A stretch of 64,000 bases of DNA, from NCBI RefSeq assembly GCF_029953285.1, contig NZ_JASAOI010000002.1, positions 310,001 to 374,000 on the forward strand, written 5' to 3'. Position numbers and translations under genes: made by a program. Positions 27,354 to 35,306 of the stretch are shown piece by piece. Each line of letters opens with the position of its first letter. The first letter of the stretch is position 1. The notes beneath the pieces are model-generated. The model saw only the letters and a list, made by a program, of their open reading frames with translations. It had not been told where the DNA came from and did no database searches. Origin of the DNA: Yinghuangia seranimata (GTDB taxonomy: Bacteria > Actinomycetota > Actinomycetes > Streptomycetales > Streptomycetaceae).

Positions 27354-28274
27354 ATGACACGGAAAGCCTGGCTCCTCTTCGCCTCGATGTCGATCGTGTG
27401 GGGCGTCTCGTACCTCTTCATCAAGATCGCCGTCGACGAGATGTCCGCGCCGGTGGTCGTCGTGTCCCGCACCGCGATCGCCGCGATCGTCCTGGTGCCC
27501 CTCGCGCTGCGCCGCCGGGCCTTCGACGCGCTGCGCGGCCGGTTCAAGATCGTCGCGCTGCTGGCGATGACCCACGTGACCGGGCCGTTCCTGCTCATCA
27601 CCTACGGCGAGGTGCACATCTCGTCGTCGCTGACCGCGCTGCTGATCGCCTCGCAGCCGATCATGATCGCGCTCATCGCCCTCAAGATCGACGCCAGCGA
27701 GCGCGTCACCGGCCCCCGCGCCGTCGGCCTGGCCGTCGGCCTCGGCGGCGTCGCGACGCTCGTCGGCTTCGACCTGACCGGCGACCGGCTGGGCCTGCTC
27801 GGCGCCGGCATGGTGCTGCTCGCGTCGCTCGGCTACGCGTGCTCGACGCTCATCGTCAAGCGGAAGCTGTCGGACGTCCCGCCGCTCGGCATCGTCGCCT
27901 CCACGATGAGCATCACCACCGTCGTGCTGCTCCCGCTCGCGATCGCCACCGCGCCCACCTCGATGCCCAGCGGCAAGGCGCTCGGCTCGCTGGCCGCGCT
28001 CGGCCTGGTGTGCACCGCGCTCGCGTTCCTGGCCTTCTACCAGCTCATCGCCGAGGCGGGCGCCGGGCGGGCCGCGCTCATCACGTACATCAACCCGGTC
28101 GTCGCCGTGCTGCTCGGCGTGCTGGTGCTCGACGAGAAGCTCACCTGGTCGATCGTCGCCGGCACCGCGCTGATCCTGGCCGGCTCGTGGTTCGCGACCC
28201 GGCCGACGGCGCCCGCCCCCCAGGCGCCGGCGACCGCGTCGCCCGTCGAGGGCGAGCTCACCCCGACGCGCTGA
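27354..28274 (+). CDS. EamA (DMT superfamily) transporter
   Basis: A 306-residue protein with about ten membrane helices in two EamA repeats (SIVWGVSYLFIKIAVDEM at the start; YINPVVAVLLGVLVLDEKLT near the end). By family it exports metabolites or amino acids. ATG 27354 follows GAGGACG. It is divergent from a LysR regulator with a dyad between them. Its last 17 bp overlap the convergent VWD lipoprotein gene. Confidence 0.92.
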   Translation: MTRKAWLLFASMSIVWGVSYLFIKIAVDEMSAPVVVVSRTAIAAIVLVPLALRRRAFDALRGRFKIVALLAMTHVTGPFLLITYGEVHISSSLTALLIASQPIMIALIALKIDASERVTGPRAVGLAVGLGGVATLVGFDLTGDRLGLLGAGMVLLASLGYACSTLIVKRKLSDVPPLGIVASTMSITTVVLLPLAIATAPTSMPSGKALGSLAALGLVCTALAFLAFYQLIAEAGAGRAALITYINPVVAVLLGVLVLDEKLTWSIVAGTALILAGSWFATRPTAPAPQAPATASPVEGELTPTR

Positions 28275-31206
28275 CCACGACGTCGTACGGCGGCGTGCCG
28301 CCCCCGGCGCCGGTCCTCAGCCGAACCGTGTAGTCCGCGGAGTCGGCGGGGATCGGCGCCGAGCGCGTCTGGCACACCGACGCGTACCCGAGCAGCTCGG
28401 ACCCGTCGCCCCGGACCACGTCCAGCTGCACCGAGCAGTCCGCCTTCGGCCCCTGCTTGACCGTCAGCTGCGTGTACCCGGTGACGGTGAACGGCAGCTC
28501 CTTGACGCCGCTCGGGCCGTCGACCTTGCCCGTGCAGCTGACGTTGTCGACGTCGTTCTTCACACACGAGGCGTCCAGCCCACCCGGCGCGGGCGTCGTC
28601 GGCATCGTCTTCTCCTGCTGCGCGACCGCCGCCGCGAACTCGCTCTTCCCGGTGAGCGCGACGTCGAGGATGCAGGCCTCCAGCAGCCCGGCGTCGGTGA
28701 TCCCGGCCGCCCTGCACGTCGCCTCGGCCTGCGCGCGCCCCGGCAGCGTCTTCGGGTCGGGCGCAGCGCGCGGGAAGTTCCGGTCGGTGAACGTCGCGGT
28801 CGACTGGCCGGGCGCATAGTCGAACAGCGACTTCTCCTGCTTGATCCGCCAGTGGTCGGCGTACGCCCCGTGCAGGTCGGCCGGTTTCGCGGGCGGGGCG
28901 AGCACGCTGCCGCCGCCGGTGTCCAGGTCGTTGGCCGGCTTCCCGTCGAAGTCGCCGAGCAGGCCGTTGAGCCGGCCCTTGCGCGAGTCGGGGACGTACA
29001 GGTCCGTCTTGAAGCCCCACGACCCGATCGGCGTGACATAGAGGTGCGAGCCGTCCGGCCACACGACGGTGTAGTTCGCGCCCATCCCGTCGCCGGTGCG
29101 GTTGAGGTAGCCGCCTTTGGGCAGCTTGGTGTCGCCTGCCGCCGGGGTGATCGTCCTGCCGTTGAGGTGCACATCGATACGCGGCTGGGCGCCGGTCGTC
29201 AGATACACCCCCACCTTGTCGCCGTTGACGTTCGCGGCCACCGCCGAGTTGACGCTGATCGAGGTCAGGTTGCCCCAGGGGCTCTGCCGCGACTGCACGA
29301 GCAGGCTGTCGTCCAACGACGCGGCGAGCGTGAACTCACCGACGGACTGCAGGTCGTAGCGCAGCTTGTCGAACGTCTGCAGGTGCGGGTCGCCGTTGCT
29401 GGTCCCGCCGCCGCACGTCGGCGCGAGGAACGGCTTCGCCCGTCCCAGCGAACCGGACGGCTGCCGCGCAAGCATCGACTTCCCGCCGCCCGCGGGCGGC
29501 GTGCACGACGGCGTCGAGGCCCCGCCGGATCCGCCGCCGGATCCGCCCCCGCCTCCGCCGCCGGGCTTGGGCTTGTTCTTCGGGTCGCCGCAGAAGTCCT
29601 TGATGCTCTGGCCGTACATCAGCACCTGCGTGGCCTGCGTACCGCCGGTCGCGCCGAGGTAGCCGCGCCCCGGGTCGACCTTGGTGAAGTCCGTTCCGTA
29701 GCCGGGGCTGTCCTCCGGGCACTCGCACTTGGACCCGAGCGTGCAGTACACGTCCGTGAGGTGCTCGGGCAACGTGAAGTCATAGCCCGGCGCCGGGCCG
29801 AACCGGCCGAACAACGTGCCGCCCTTGCCCTGTTCGAGGCGCACGATGTCCGCATTGAGGTCGAGTCGCGCGAACATCGGTTCGAACGCCCCGGGATCGA
29901 CCGCGTTGACCTGGTGGGCGTTGGTGAGCGGGATGACGACCTTGCCGTCGCGCAGGCCGTCGTCGGTGATACCGATGCCGTCGGTGTTCCACGCGGGCCC
30001 GTGCTCGCCGCCGCGGTAGAAACCGGCGCCCCACGCAGTGAGCACGTCGTCCCGTCTGCCGTCGAGCAGCGCGTTGAACGCGTCCGTGTTGTGCGGTCTC
30101 TTGCCGGCGCTGCCGGCGTTCAGGGCCGGGCGGATCACCGACCACACGTCCACGCCGCGGTACTCGAGCTCGTTGAAGAAGCCCATCGCGGCCTCGTCCA
30201 TCGTGCGGAGATCGAGCTTGTCGAGGGTGAGGTACTTCTTCCAGTCCCACGGCTGGTCGTAGTGGCCGGTGACCTTGGCGGCGATCCAGTCGCACATGCC
30301 TTGTGTCAGCCATTCGGGGGTATGGCCGAAGAAGTCCTCGTCGTCGAGGATCATCCCCTGGGCGCAGTGCCCGAGTTCGTGGGCGAGGAACTCCTCGCGC
30401 TGCCGGGCCGTGAACGAGTCTTCGCCGGTCGTCCTGCCTGTCTTCGGGTCCTTCTTTTTCGCGAACGTCACCGGGTACACGTTGACCTCGCACTGCTGCC
30501 CGGACGTGGTGCTGTTCCAGCCCGTGGCGTCGGCGAGGGCGTCGGGGCGCTGGTTGAACGGGCGGCACGCCGCGATGTGCACCCTGGTGTCGAGCTTCAG
30601 GTTGGGGGCGAGCTTGTCCCACAGCTCGTGGAGTTGCGTTTCGATGGCCTTGTCGGCACGGCTCCCGGGGCCGCACGAGGCGATCACAGGGTCGAGGGCG
30701 GGCGGCATCGCGGGCTTGGCCGCACCCTTCGTCCCGCCGGGCGACGCCTTGGTCGGGCGCGGCGTCGTGGTCGGCTTGGGCGTCGGCCCCCGTGTCCCGC
30801 CGGCCTTGCGTAGGGCGACGGCGCGCGGTTCGTCCTGCCCGGTCAACGCGGCGACGGCCGCCCGCTGGTCCGCGGACAACTGGTCCCAGTAGAGGCTGAT
30901 CCAATGCAGGGCCGATGTGCCCGACTGCACTCCGGAGGTCGTCGCCTGCGGAGCCTGGACGCCGGGCAGCGGCCCGTACGCGACCGCGAAGCCGGCCAGC
31001 GCCATCTCCTGGCTGACCTCGCCCTCGGGGCCGGACATGGCCAGGACCTTCTGCCAGGCGGTCGGCTCGGCCTTGGCGCCGCCCCCCTTCTCGTCCTTGT
31101 CGGTGAGGTGCTTGAGGAAGCCGCAACCCCCCACCGTCAGCATGAGCGCGGCGGCGAGCACCGCCACCGCCGCCCTCATCCGCGTCGACAACCCCGCTGC
31201 GTGCAT
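28258..31206 (-). CDS. lipoprotein with metallopeptidase-like and von Willebrand type D domains (paralogue 1)
   Basis: A 982-residue surface lipoprotein: signal peptide with lipobox TVGGC (Cys28), a PEGEVSQEMALAGFAVAYG helical region, a Pro/Thr/Lys linker (about 138-168), and a Cys-rich metallopeptidase-like region with HELGHC (His276, Glu277, His280). Residue 302 in WLTQG, where gluzincins normally have the third ligand Glu, is Gln. A Gly/Ser linker (about 548-562) leads to a VWD domain from GDPHLQTFD (605-613) through LNGLLGDFDGKPANDL, where the usual CGLC cysteines are replaced. A beta-rich C-terminal domain follows. ATG 31206 gives a normal lipoprotein signal; the longer frame does not. 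It is the downstream gene of a tandem pair with 31326-34331. Confidence 0.88.
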   Translation of the reverse strand: MHAAGLSTRMRAAVAVLAAALMLTVGGCGFLKHLTDKDEKGGGAKAEPTAWQKVLAMSGPEGEVSQEMALAGFAVAYGPLPGVQAPQATTSGVQSGTSALHWISLYWDQLSADQRAAVAALTGQDEPRAVALRKAGGTRGPTPKPTTTPRPTKASPGGTKGAAKPAMPPALDPVIASCGPGSRADKAIETQLHELWDKLAPNLKLDTRVHIAACRPFNQRPDALADATGWNSTTSGQQCEVNVYPVTFAKKKDPKTGRTTGEDSFTARQREEFLAHELGHCAQGMILDDEDFFGHTPEWLTQGMCDWIAAKVTGHYDQPWDWKKYLTLDKLDLRTMDEAAMGFFNELEYRGVDVWSVIRPALNAGSAGKRPHNTDAFNALLDGRRDDVLTAWGAGFYRGGEHGPAWNTDGIGITDDGLRDGKVVIPLTNAHQVNAVDPGAFEPMFARLDLNADIVRLEQGKGGTLFGRFGPAPGYDFTLPEHLTDVYCTLGSKCECPEDSPGYGTDFTKVDPGRGYLGATGGTQATQVLMYGQSIKDFCGDPKNKPKPGGGGGGGSGGGSGGASTPSCTPPAGGGKSMLARQPSGSLGRAKPFLAPTCGGGTSNGDPHLQTFDKLRYDLQSVGEFTLAASLDDSLLVQSRQSPWGNLTSISVNSAVAANVNGDKVGVYLTTGAQPRIDVHLNGRTITPAAGDTKLPKGGYLNRTGDGMGANYTVVWPDGSHLYVTPIGSWGFKTDLYVPDSRKGRLNGLLGDFDGKPANDLDTGGGSVLAPPAKPADLHGAYADHWRIKQEKSLFDYAPGQSTATFTDRNFPRAAPDPKTLPGRAQAEATCRAAGITDAGLLEACILDVALTGKSEFAAAVAQQEKTMPTTPAPGGLDASCVKNDVDNVSCTGKVDGPSGVKELPFTVTGYTQLTVKQGPKADCSVQLDVVRGDGSELLGYASVCQTRSAPIPADSADYTVRLRTGAGGGTPPYDVVVSASG

Positions 31207-31325
31207 GCCGTCCCCCCGGACGCTTCGGGCCGGTGGTCTCCCCGCGACGGCCCCTCTGATTTCACGGTAGGTACGCGCTGTCCCGGCCACCCGGGACCGC
31301 TGTCCCGACTTCCGTCACAGCCTCG

Positions 31326-34300
31326 TCACACGCCGCTTCCAACGGTGAAGCCGTACGTTCCCGCGACCGCGGCGTCGGTCTTGTCGACCACCACGAAGTA
31401 CTCGCCGTCCGCCGGCAGAACGACCGGTCCCAGGTCCCGGCACACCGACACCGGCTTCCGCAGCAGCGTGGCCTCGGAGTACCGGACGACGATGTCCCGG
31501 TACAGCGACCAGCGCAGCCGGCAGTCGGCGTCGCCGGTGTGGCGCAGGTCGACGGTGGTGCCCTTCGTGCCGGTGAACGCGAACTCGTGGTCCCAGTCGC
31601 CGGCCGGCAGGTAGCCCGCGCAGGCCATCGCGCCCGTGCCGCCGGTGCGTACCGTGTCGCCGACCGCGACCGGGAACCGCTTGGTGTTGGCGGCGCCCGG
31701 CGTCGTGACCACGCACGCCGGGTCCACCGGCAGGCCGGCGCCCGCGCCCGGCCCGGCCGCCGCCTGGAACTTCTGCTCCGCGCCCGCGCTGCGCGCGAAC
31801 TCGTCGTGCCCGGTGAGCGCGACGTCCGCGACGCACGCCTCACGCAGCCGCGGGTCGGTGACCCCGGCCTCCGCGCAGCGCGCCTCGGCGGCGGGCCGGT
31901 TCGGCAGCGCGGCGGCAGGGCGCTCCGCGGGGAACGCCCGGTCGGTGTACGACGCGGTGGAACGCCCCGGCGCGTAGTCGAACAGCGACTCCTCGGCCCT
32001 GATCCGCCAGTGGTCGGCGAACGCGCCGTGCAGGTCGGCCCACGCCGGCGGCTGCGCGAGCGCCGAACCTCCCGCGGTGACAAGGTCGTTCGCGGGTCGG
32101 CCGTCGAAGTCGCCGAGCAGCCCGGACAGCCCGCCGGCGCGCGCCGCGGCGACGGCGAGGTCCGCCTTGAGGCCATAGCCGCCGATCGGCGTGACGAACA
32201 GCGTGCTTCCGTCCGGCCATGCGACGGCGTAGGCCGGCGCCGCGGCGGCGCCCGAGCGGGTCAGGCGGCCGCCCTTGGGCAGCGCCGTCACCCCGGCCTG
32301 CGGCACGGTCGCGCCGCCGTTGAGGCGGACGTCCACACCACCCGCGCCCGTCAGATAGAACCCGACCCGGTCCCCGGCGACGTCGGCCGCCACCGCCGTG
32401 TTGACGGCGACCGCGCGCGAACCGGCCACCGGCTCCTGGCGGGTCTGCACGCGCATCCCGTCGCCCGGCGCCTGGACGAGCGTGAACTCGCCCGCCGCCT
32501 GGAAGTCGTAGCGGTCGCCGTCGAACGTCGCCAGGTGCGGGTCGCCGAAGCTGGACCCGGCACCGCACCCGGCGCACCCGGACGGCGGGCCTTCGGGGCC
32601 GTTCGGCCCCGGCGCGCTTGGGGACGCCGGAGAGCCGTGAGGCGCAGGCTCCCTCGGATCGGCCGGTTTGCCGCAGAAGTCCGCGAGGCTGCGCCCGCCG
32701 ACCACCACCGCCGCGCTGTCGGTTCCGCCCGTGAGCGCGACCAGCGCGGGCCCGGAGTCGATCCGGGTGAACGCCGTCCCGGCGCCCGGGCTGTTGTCGG
32801 GGCAGCGGCACGCCGCGCCCCGGGTGCAGAACGTCTTCCCGAACGCCTGCGCGAACGTGTAGTCGTCGAGGGCACCCGGCCCGAACCGGCCGTGCGCCGA
32901 GCCGGAACCGCCGTCCCACAGCCGCACCACCTCGGCCTTGAGGTCGACCGAGCCGAGCTGGCCACCGAACGGGCCGCTGAGCTGGGTGTACGCGGGGCCG
33001 TGGTCGGTCACCTGGCCCGACACCTTCGGAACCCAGCTCGACGCGGTGACGCCGACGCCGCGCGCGTCCCATTCGCGGCTGCGCCCGGGCTGCCGGACGA
33101 GTGCGGAGATCCACGCGTCGAGCAGTGCCGCGCGGCCGGGGCCGCCCGCGGTGGTCGTCGCCGCGGTGAACACCGCGTCGCCGCCGGACGGCACCGCCTC
33201 CTTGATTCTTCGGATCGCGGGGAAGAGGTCGACGCCATGCGTCGACAGGTGGAACCAGAAGCCGAGGGCCGACGAGCCGCGCCGGTTCAGCGGTGTCCAG
33301 TCCGGTGTGTCGGCGACCGGCGTCAGATATGTGGGCCACGACGGGTCGTAGCCGGGGATCGATCCTACGAGCGTCGCGGCGCACCACGCCGCGAGGCCTT
33401 CCTCCACCCACGCCGGCATCAGCATGAACCGGGGCTGGGGCAGGATCGCGATGCTGAAGCAGTGCGTCAGCTCTTCGACCAGTGTGAACTCCTGGTCGGC
33501 GCGGCTGTCCGAGCGGAACGGCGGCAGCACGGCGATACGGCAAACGGTCTCCGTGCCGTCGTGCCCTGCGTCGGCGAACGCCCGCACGCCGGGGGCCACC
33601 TCGCCGTGCGGGTCGAACGCGGCGGGGTCGGCCAGGCACACGCGGATGTGCAGGTGGTCCGTCGCGGCGGACATCCGCACGGCCAGCTGATTGGTCTCGT
33701 AGGACGCCCGCGTGTCGATGTCCGGGTCGCGGGACGTGCCCGCAGGGCAGGTGAACAGGCGCCCGGCGGGGGAGCCCGGCGTGGGGGTGTAGCCGGTAGG
33801 CGCGAGCGGCGGCGCGTCCGGGACGGAACGCCGCAGGGGCACGGCTTTCTGCGACGGCGCCGCGTTCGACGTCGCCGTTGCCGTCGCCGAGGGCTTGGCC
33901 GTCGGCGTGGAGGGCTTCGCCGTCGGCCCGGCTCCGTCGCCCTCGCCGTCGCCCACGTCCGGTGTCCCCGCCTGCAACCAGCGGTCCGCCGCCGTCCGCT
34001 GATCGGGCGTCAGCTCGGTCCAGTAGCCCTCGAGCCACCGGACGGCCGCGCTGCCCGAGGTGATCCCGTCGCGACCGCCCTGCGGCGCGGGGACGCCGGG
34101 CAGCGTGCCGAACGTCGCCGCGAACGCCGCGAGCGCCATGTCCTTGGTGACCTCGCCGTGCGGGCCCGCCATGGCCAGCACCCGGTCCCACGCGGTCGGT
34201 TCGGCGGTGTCGGGCCGACGGTCGTCGCGGGCCTTCGCGAGCAGTCCGCAGCCGGCGAGCGCCAGGACCAGGACGAGCGCGACCGCGGTGTGCGCCCACC

Positions 34301-34331
34301 TGCCACGGACGTGCGTACGCGATGCGGACAT
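31326..34331 (-). CDS. lipoprotein with degenerate metallopeptidase-like and von Willebrand type D domains (paralogue 2)
   Basis: A 1001-residue paralogue of the next gene with the same order: lipobox LALAGC (Cys28), GPHGEVTKDMALAAFAATFG, Pro/Thr linker, metallopeptidase-like region, VWD domain from GDPHLATFD (596-604) through SGLLGDFDGRPANDL, then the conserved DHWRI-xx-EESLFDYAPG segment. Here the HExxH position reads EELTHC (Glu286, Glu287, His290), so the first ligand His is lost, but the downstream position keeps Glu311 (WVEEG). The C-terminal domain differs from paralogue 1 and resembles a pre-peptidase C-terminal beta-sandwich. It is first in the pair, with 119 bp between the genes and a distinctive operator-like element upstream. 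Confidence 0.88.
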   Translation of the reverse strand: MSASRTHVRGRWAHTAVALVLVLALAGCGLLAKARDDRRPDTAEPTAWDRVLAMAGPHGEVTKDMALAAFAATFGTLPGVPAPQGGRDGITSGSAAVRWLEGYWTELTPDQRTAADRWLQAGTPDVGDGEGDGAGPTAKPSTPTAKPSATATATSNAAPSQKAVPLRRSVPDAPPLAPTGYTPTPGSPAGRLFTCPAGTSRDPDIDTRASYETNQLAVRMSAATDHLHIRVCLADPAAFDPHGEVAPGVRAFADAGHDGTETVCRIAVLPPFRSDSRADQEFTLVEELTHCFSIAILPQPRFMLMPAWVEEGLAAWCAATLVGSIPGYDPSWPTYLTPVADTPDWTPLNRRGSSALGFWFHLSTHGVDLFPAIRRIKEAVPSGGDAVFTAATTTAGGPGRAALLDAWISALVRQPGRSREWDARGVGVTASSWVPKVSGQVTDHGPAYTQLSGPFGGQLGSVDLKAEVVRLWDGGSGSAHGRFGPGALDDYTFAQAFGKTFCTRGAACRCPDNSPGAGTAFTRIDSGPALVALTGGTDSAAVVVGGRSLADFCGKPADPREPAPHGSPASPSAPGPNGPEGPPSGCAGCGAGSSFGDPHLATFDGDRYDFQAAGEFTLVQAPGDGMRVQTRQEPVAGSRAVAVNTAVAADVAGDRVGFYLTGAGGVDVRLNGGATVPQAGVTALPKGGRLTRSGAAAAPAYAVAWPDGSTLFVTPIGGYGLKADLAVAAARAGGLSGLLGDFDGRPANDLVTAGGSALAQPPAWADLHGAFADHWRIRAEESLFDYAPGRSTASYTDRAFPAERPAAALPNRPAAEARCAEAGVTDPRLREACVADVALTGHDEFARSAGAEQKFQAAAGPGAGAGLPVDPACVVTTPGAANTKRFPVAVGDTVRTGGTGAMACAGYLPAGDWDHEFAFTGTKGTTVDLRHTGDADCRLRWSLYRDIVVRYSEATLLRKPVSVCRDLGPVVLPADGEYFVVVDKTDAAVAGTYGFTVGSGV

Positions 34332-34432
34332 GGCGCCCCCCGGCGTTCCGCGCGGCCGGACTCCCCGGCTCGGCCGCCCTTCTCCGCACGGTAGGCGCGC
34401 GGGTCCGGCTCCGGTGCCCCTCGGGCCGTAAT

Positions 34433-34466
34433 TTCACCACAGTTTTACTGCGGTGAATGTGGTGAA
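34433..34466. promoter_or_regulatory. AT-rich operator-like element upstream of the VWD lipoprotein pair
   Basis: TTCACCACAGT (34433-34443) and ACTGCGGTGAA (34447-34457) form an 11-bp dyad with one mismatch around TTT. A further half-site TGTGGTGAA (34458-34466) follows as a 9-bp direct repeat. The GTTCACC core recalls PhoP units, but the 9-bp period does not fit the 11-bp Pho box. Confidence 0.5.
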
Positions 34467-34502
34467 CCCTTCGAGGCGGCCGGACCCGCGCCGACAGACG
34501 TG

Positions 34503-35306
34503 TCAGTCCTTGTACTCCGGCACCCGCTTCTCCTTGCGGGCGATGATCGCCTCTTCGAAGTTCTGCGTCGTCAGGCGGACGTACAGCTGTGCGTGTCCTT
34601 CCGCGTCCATGTGCGCCTGCATGCTCCCGGCCTCCAGGCCCGCCCACAGCATGCGCTTGGTCACCTCGACGCCGACCCGGCTGAACCCGATGATCCGGTC
34701 CGCCAGGTCGAGGCACTCGTCGAGCAGCTTCTCGCCCGGCACGACCCGCGAGACCAGGCCGATGCGCTCGGCCTCGACGGCGTCGACGTCCCGCCCGGAC
34801 AGCATGATCTCGAACGCGCGCGACGAGCCGATGGCGCGCGGCAGCAGGTAGCTGATGCCGAGCTCGCTCGCCGTCAGCCCGTTGTTGATGCCGGCCGCGC
34901 GGAAGTACGCGGCCTCCGAGGCGATCCGGATGTCCGTCGCGACCGACAGGCAGAACCCGCCGCCGATCGCCGGGCCGTTGATCGCGCCGATCACCGGCTG
35001 GTGCAGCTTGCGCAGCCCGAGGATGACGTCGTCGAGGATCTCCATCGAACGCCGGGCGATGCTGGTGCGGGTCAGCCCCTTCACGCCCGGGATCCGGCCC
35101 GAGCTCTCCAGGTCGGCGCCCGAGCAGAAGCCGCGCCCCGCGCCGGTGAGCACGACCACCCGCGTATCGTTGTCCGCGCTGACCTCCTCGAGGGCCTCGC
35201 GGAAGGGCACCATCACGTCGAACGCCATCGCGTTCATCCGCTCCGGGCGGTTGAGCGTGATCAGGGTCACGTGTGGGCGCGGCTTGTCGATGAGCACAAA
35301 CGACAT
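34503..35306 (-). CDS. enoyl-CoA hydratase/isomerase family protein
   Basis: A 267-residue crotonase-fold protein with LNRPERMNAM, the CoA/oxyanion loop GFCSGADL, a second oxyanion segment INGPAIGGGF and ASELGISYLLPRAIGSSRAF, which carries the Glu in the active-site region. It is probably cytosolic and acts on an acyl-CoA; hydratase and isomerase cannot be separated by eye. The start is ATG 35306. It is divergent from the methyltransferase at 35403, and about 100 bp separate it from that start. It is not obviously linked to the VWD genes downstream. Confidence 0.92.
   Translation of the reverse strand: MSFVLIDKPRPHVTLITLNRPERMNAMAFDVMVPFREALEEVSADNDTRVVVLTGAGRGFCSGADLESSGRIPGVKGLTRTSIARRSMEILDDVILGLRKLHQPVIGAINGPAIGGGFCLSVATDIRIASEAAYFRAAGINNGLTASELGISYLLPRAIGSSRAFEIMLSGRDVDAVEAERIGLVSRVVPGEKLLDECLDLADRIIGFSRVGVEVTKRMLWAGLEAGSMQAHMDAEGHAQLYVRLTTQNFEEAIIARKEKRVPEYKD

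Follow-up and report, generated by a model that had tools for sequence, protein, structure and literature searches.

The GDPH tetrapeptide is a self-cleavage motif in many, though not all, VWD domains, and mucin-type VWDs are cut at this site. In the D10 VWD of FCGBP, changes of either the Asp or the His of the motif stop self-cleavage, and changes of Gln4094, placed 14 residues past Asp4080, reduce it (PMC10880436). VWDs also occur together with zincin-like peptidases in secreted proteins of myxobacteria and others that carry Lipocone domains, for which a role of the VWD in adhesion has been proposed (PMC12419801). On the peptidase side, it is established that some metallopeptidase homologues have lost ligands along with activity and serve in binding or as scaffolds, and the proteins described here resemble them in that zinc ligands are lost while the protein is kept whole; the review on such pseudopeptidases enters LTA4H in its table as HExxHx18E with Y378 (PMC11266112).

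We analyzed two neighboring genes of Yinghuangia seranimata, hereafter P1 and P2, with coordinates given as positions within the window, that is, the whole 64,000-nt stretch of contig NZ_JASAOI010000002.1 (310,001-374,000). P1 (28258..31206, minus strand) encodes a predicted 982-aa lipoprotein consisting of a signal peptide with a lipobox (Cys28), an N-terminal domain, a peptidase-like domain, a Cys-rich region, a VWD followed by a C8-like stretch, and a variable C-terminus, whereas P2 (31326..34331, minus strand) encodes a 1001-aa lipoprotein built in the same way; apart from VWD, the domain names are our own reading. The longest P1 frame opens at a GTG at 31290, and the start was set at the ATG at 31206 because a GGGGGGA-type ribosome site precedes it. 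Both genes are undamaged frames of ~1000 codons with a GC3 of 0.93-0.94. P2 lies upstream of P1 on the common strand, with a gap of 119 nt that holds no terminator-like site; sigma-70-type promoters numbered zero in 28100-34700, which equals the chance expectation. The 3' end of P1 overlaps a convergent EamA-type transporter gene (27354-28274, plus strand) by 17 bases (28258-28274). The initial annotation had described two proteins of about 1000 residues with a lipobox and a VWD, and both features are borne out: by inspection, P1 and P2 have a signal peptide with the lipobox Cys of bacterial lipoproteins (VGGC and LAGC, Cys at residue 28 in each), and the VWD (PF00094) scores 36.4 bits in P1 and 36.7 bits in P2 against a Pfam cut-off of 22.9, being the sole Pfam domain above its cut-off in either protein. 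Searching the genome that contains the window uncovered two further paralogues, namely Par3 (contig 1; G000:C1, about 217.7-220.6 kb; L007 7695-10622, plus strand) and Par4 (same contig as the window, at a distance of ~230 kb; G000:C22, about 107.0-109.8 kb), both with HELTH and the third-ligand Glu. P1 is 39% identical to P2, 44% to Par3 and 43% to Par4. A shared operon was discarded, as a rough gene call inspected by eye, with window neighbors annotated in part, revealed no neighbor common to the P1/P2, Par3 and Par4 loci.

GDPH stands at the start of the VWD at residues 605-608 of P1 (29383..29394, minus strand) and 596-599 of P2 (32535..32546, minus strand), within VWD plus C8-like stretches that span residues 603-858 (28633..29400, minus strand) and 594-846 (31794..32552, minus strand), respectively. 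A profile of the VWD stretches of the four paralogues, all of which carry GDPH and a Gln at D+14, matched an FCGBP chain with an E of 1.7e-30, followed by mucins and VWF. The likeness to mucin-type VWDs (FCGBP, MUC5B, MUC2) thus comprises the profile match, GDPH and the Gln at +14, whereas P1 and P2 differ from them in having no Cys within the VWD itself and no TIL or E module by Pfam, and in their bacterial lipoprotein context. Among ten VWDs, four of them from the paralogues and six from five further genomes, the motif reads GDPH in seven, GEPH in two and GDTH in one, and Gln at +14 occurs in all ten; since VWDs devoid of GDPH keep this Gln too, the residue alone does not point to cleavage. 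Self-cleavage of P1 and P2 at GDPH is therefore put forward as a prediction from the motif. The Lipocone-bearing proteins combine a zincin-like peptidase with a VWD as P1 and P2 do, which is a likeness of architecture; they carry a prok-SAA Lipocone toxin domain (PMC12419801), whereas Pfam finds no such extra domain in P1 or P2.

We then examined the zinc site. In gluzincins this site, two His plus one Glu, forms within a single chain. Neither P1 nor P2 retains the full ligand set. P1 has HELGH (residues 276-280; 30367..30381, minus strand) and a Gln at the third-ligand column (Gln302, CAA; 30301..30303, minus strand), where each of the nine proteins compared with it has Glu. P2 has EELTH (residues 286-290; 33462..33476, minus strand), in which Glu286 replaces the first His, and keeps the third ligand (Glu311, GAA; 33399..33401, minus strand). 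These residues, as first annotated, were confirmed in both genes. The distance from HExxH to the third-ligand position is 21-22 residues, and the general-base Glu of HExxH is kept in both proteins. A Tyr within the segment [SG]Y[DES][AG].G, putatively catalytic by analogy with M1-type enzymes, is gone from both, the segment reading MDEAAMG in P1 and RGSSALG in P2. Each protein also has an extra Cys after the third-ligand position that is not found in Par3 or Par4, Cys305 of P1 (30292-30294) three residues past Gln302 and Cys317 of P2 (33381-33383) six residues past Glu311.

Outside P1 and P2 we counted eight relatives (Par3, Par4, G307, G260, G458, two of G960, and G978, the latter counted though its match covers ~100 positions with an E of 7e-9). 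All eight keep HExxH and the Glu, and seven of them the Tyr, in a segment like SYDAIG, the exception being Par3. The weaker class-sample matches G083, G069 and G118 (E 2.5e-6 to 8.1e-6) were left out of this count; two of them, G083 and G069, likewise have HExxH and Glu (HEITH…TEG and HELTH…AEG). A full HExxH...E is thus the norm in the family, which comes near to what the initial annotation had named as refuting its own proposal of reciprocal ligand loss. The substitutions in P1 and P2 are real, and the columns are H, H and E in all eight relatives. Their reciprocal aspect is weak: if chance removed one of the three ligands from each protein, simple arithmetic gives a probability of 2/3 that the two would differ in the ligand lost.

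To compare divergence among the four paralogues, we scored lone departures, that is, alignment columns in which one of P1, P2, Par3 and Par4 differs from the other three, within domain borders that we set ourselves. In this order, the counts were 5, 7, 3 and 8 in the N-terminal domain (78 columns), 12, 19, 9 and 2 in the peptidase core (200 columns, ligand changes included), 11, 9, 7 and 3 in the Cys-rich region (145 columns), 8, 11, 7 and 10 in the VWD (165 columns), 2, 6, 4 and 8 in the C8-like stretch (87 columns), and 8, 4, 2 and 2 in the tail (116 columns). Invariant columns amounted to 67/165 in the VWD and 30/200 in the core. From the core and VWD counts it follows that the peptidase domain is under the tightest constraint in Par4, whose site is complete, and that change in the VWD is even across the four. 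The Cys-rich region shows the same skew, so P1 and P2 change faster outside the catalytic part as well. Fisher tests of core versus VWD, all uncorrected, yielded p 0.008 for P1+P2 against Par4, a contrast picked after the counts had been seen, and 0.028, 0.015 and 0.054 for P1, P2 and Par3 alone against Par4, whereas P1+P2 against Par3+Par4 was not significant (p 0.062); bootstrap ranges of the core/VWD branch ratio overlap (P1 1.72-4.20, P2 1.89-4.66, Par3 1.37-3.50, Par4 0.85-2.13). The divergence contrast between ligand-lost and ligand-kept copies is only suggestive.

We consider it somewhat better than even, with a probability of roughly 0.55, that P1 and P2 are peptidase homologues that decayed independently of each other and are retained for surface binding or auto-processing by the VWD. 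Their ancestor would have been a lipoprotein that combined an active gluzincin-type peptidase with a VWD-C8-like module, from which P1 and P2, as lipid-anchored proteins of the cell surface, would each have separately lost one zinc-site residue and the putative catalytic Tyr. These losses make both proteins most likely pseudopeptidases, and we infer from them a loss of peptidase activity. The VWD module with its GDPH would be the part preserved, serving most likely in surface binding or as a scaffold, possibly with a single cut at the Asp-Pro bond inside the VWD that leaves two chains staying together; both the self-cleavage and the binding role are inferred from sequence. Any peptidase work would be left to the intact paralogues, above all Par4. 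Hence, among the three roles initially proposed, the non-catalytic surface role fits best, whereas division of labor and a complementing complex found no support. The inactive metallopeptidase homologues named in the passages cited from the pseudopeptidase review are eukaryotic, unlike P1 and P2. Speaking against decay, Par3 holds all ligands but has a raised core count and no Tyr, and Par4, if placed near the root, would likewise show few lone departures. A GDPH-bearing mucin-type VWD on a peptidase-like actinomycete lipoprotein, in a genome that holds both live-looking and dead-looking copies, would offer a simple bacterial setting for asking what VWD self-cleavage does and why dead peptidases are kept. 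On a broader and quite doubtful view, the proteins would make up an uncatalogued lipid-anchored peptidase-VWD family with stepwise decay of the peptidase (Par4 complete, Par3 without the Tyr, P1 and P2 without ligands) and a self-cutting VWD kept throughout; the dead copies, sharing the cell surface with the live paralogues, would bind or regulate these or act as decoys for them.

The metal site might also be altered instead of lost, P1 with His, His and Gln or Cys305, and P2 with Glu, His and Glu, binding zinc or another metal with changed or weak activity. Retention of the general-base Glu in both proteins and the extra Cys305 and Cys317 near the third ligand are consistent with such a site, in which Gln302 of P1 might hold zinc weakly, Cys305 could be a substitute ligand, and Glu286 could take part as a ligand in P2. 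We nonetheless hold it to be rather unlikely, as the putative Tyr is lost from both and lone departures in the cores of P1 and P2 exceed those of Par3 and Par4; the AlphaFold models, with a mean pLDDT of 34.5 (P1) and 32.4 (P2), are too poor to place residues or to judge a thermolysin-like fold.

The assignment of the region as peptidase-like rests on the relatives of P1 and P2. Pfam peptidase models gave no match to either protein at E up to 1. Peptidase_MA_2 (PF13485) weakly matches Par3 (E 0.0022) and Par4, and BSP (PF04450) weakly matches G307 and one G960 protein, in all cases over the active-site region and below the curated cut-offs. Nine counted members were scanned (P1, P2, Par3, Par4, G307, G260, two of G960, and G978; G458 was left out), and none of them has a Pfam peptidase above cut-off. 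A seven-protein family profile found as its best PDB match the aminopeptidase 3cia (E 0.0089) in an alignment that spans HExxH...W..EG, a stretch also shared with leukotriene A4 hydrolase (2xpy), which ranked among the top profile matches with an E of 0.34 at best; a PDB search with a first N-terminal alignment returned nothing of use. The likeness to these M1 enzymes is bounded by the E values, by the ~50 residues matched, by the absence of any M1 model above the Pfam cut-off and by the broken ligand sets of P1 and P2. By way of the M1 profile match and the sub-threshold Pfam matches of relatives, we regard the region of P1 and P2 as a probable gluzincin relative. The lack of Pfam peptidases above cut-off in the nine members and the modest E of the best PDB match would also suit a region that never was a peptidase, its HExxH being an incidental remnant of an adhesion domain. 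This is improbable, however, because HExxH, a Glu at 17-31 residues and the Tyr occur together in VWD-less relatives of five taxonomic families, because the family profile aligns with M1 aminopeptidases precisely at HExxH...E, and because the more distant G083 protein, outside the count, passes the Peptidase_MA_2 cut-off (35.8 vs 32.4 bits).

Descent of P1 and P2 was assessed in domain trees, neither of which groups them as sisters. The peptidase tree places P1 next to Par4, weakly supported (75/78), and does not reject a P1+P2 grouping (p-AU 0.162). In the VWD tree the partner of P1 is Par3 (96/92), and rejection of P1+P2 is marginal (p-AU 0.045). Among the C-terminal tails, P2 and Par3 share 49% identity, against 19-26% for the other five pairs, of which P2 and P1 share 19%. 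Trees and tails together indicate that the tandem pair did not arise by a clean, recent duplication followed by reciprocal loss, a scenario that finds no support in the position of P1 next to Par3 in the VWD tree or in the P2 tail being nearest to that of Par3. Exchange among the paralogues, tails included, is likely. It is highly improbable that the two proteins complement each other in a single complex or split the labor, each supplying the missing part of the other, given that a gluzincin site sits in one chain, with HExxH and the third-ligand position 21-22 residues apart here, that the Tyr is missing from both, that the two do not group as sisters, that all eight relatives, two of them in the same genome, have intact ligand sets, and that differing losses arise by chance two times in three. 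The adjacency of the genes on one strand, 119 nt apart across a gap free of terminator-like sites, and the different ligands missing had favored that idea, as do peptidase pairs with one inactive partner such as the M16 alpha/beta MPP, though the other partner there is intact (PMC11266112). The pair itself is not a new type of complementing enzyme.

The family proved patchy across the samples searched. Neither of the two other genomes of the genus matched full-length P1, and its peptidase region had no match elsewhere in the taxonomic family, for which 60 other genomes, the two congeners included, were searched. Matches at E up to 1e-5 were found in 5/393 other genomes of the class sample, and further matches in 1/390 others of the order sample and 2/345 others of the phylum sample; 1/22 genomes in the family of G260 and 1/166 in the order of G307 matched, these being G260 and G307 themselves. 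The samples overlap, and the class, order, phylum and G307-order searches may miss members because 4 to 9 first-look candidates were scored per genome. Contig scans queried with P1 or with an alignment of all four proteins, as well as a viral contig scan, yielded nothing of use. Literature on this lipoprotein family or on actinobacterial VWDs was not found in a search that mostly left subscription papers outside. A mobile origin was discarded, as no phage record matched the VWD stretch and matches in the plasmid collection were limited to it: 16 records at 26-43% identity, some annotated as Calx-beta or YD-repeat proteins, and none to the N-terminal half of P1 (E up to 1e-5) or to Par4 (E up to 0.01).

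With the VWD profile, 5/393 other genomes of the class sample matched (six candidates scored per genome), and the peptidase domain of the P1/P2 type was in none of the frames seen among these matches. Two genomes of another taxonomic family have proteins with an M91-type HELNH domain, a VWD-C8-like module and C-terminal PPC domains (L035 4025-7531, plus strand; L036 5985-9146, minus strand), in which the M91 Pfam score is 26.4 in one, above the cut-off of 25, and 23.4 in the other, below it; they are a second, different zincin-VWD pairing. In genomes G292 and G078, a GEPH VWD (Asp to Glu) lies behind a region that appears nuclease-like by eye and is followed by repeats (L038 3-3899, minus strand; L039 1-4509, minus strand), those of L038 being PPC-like by Pfam.
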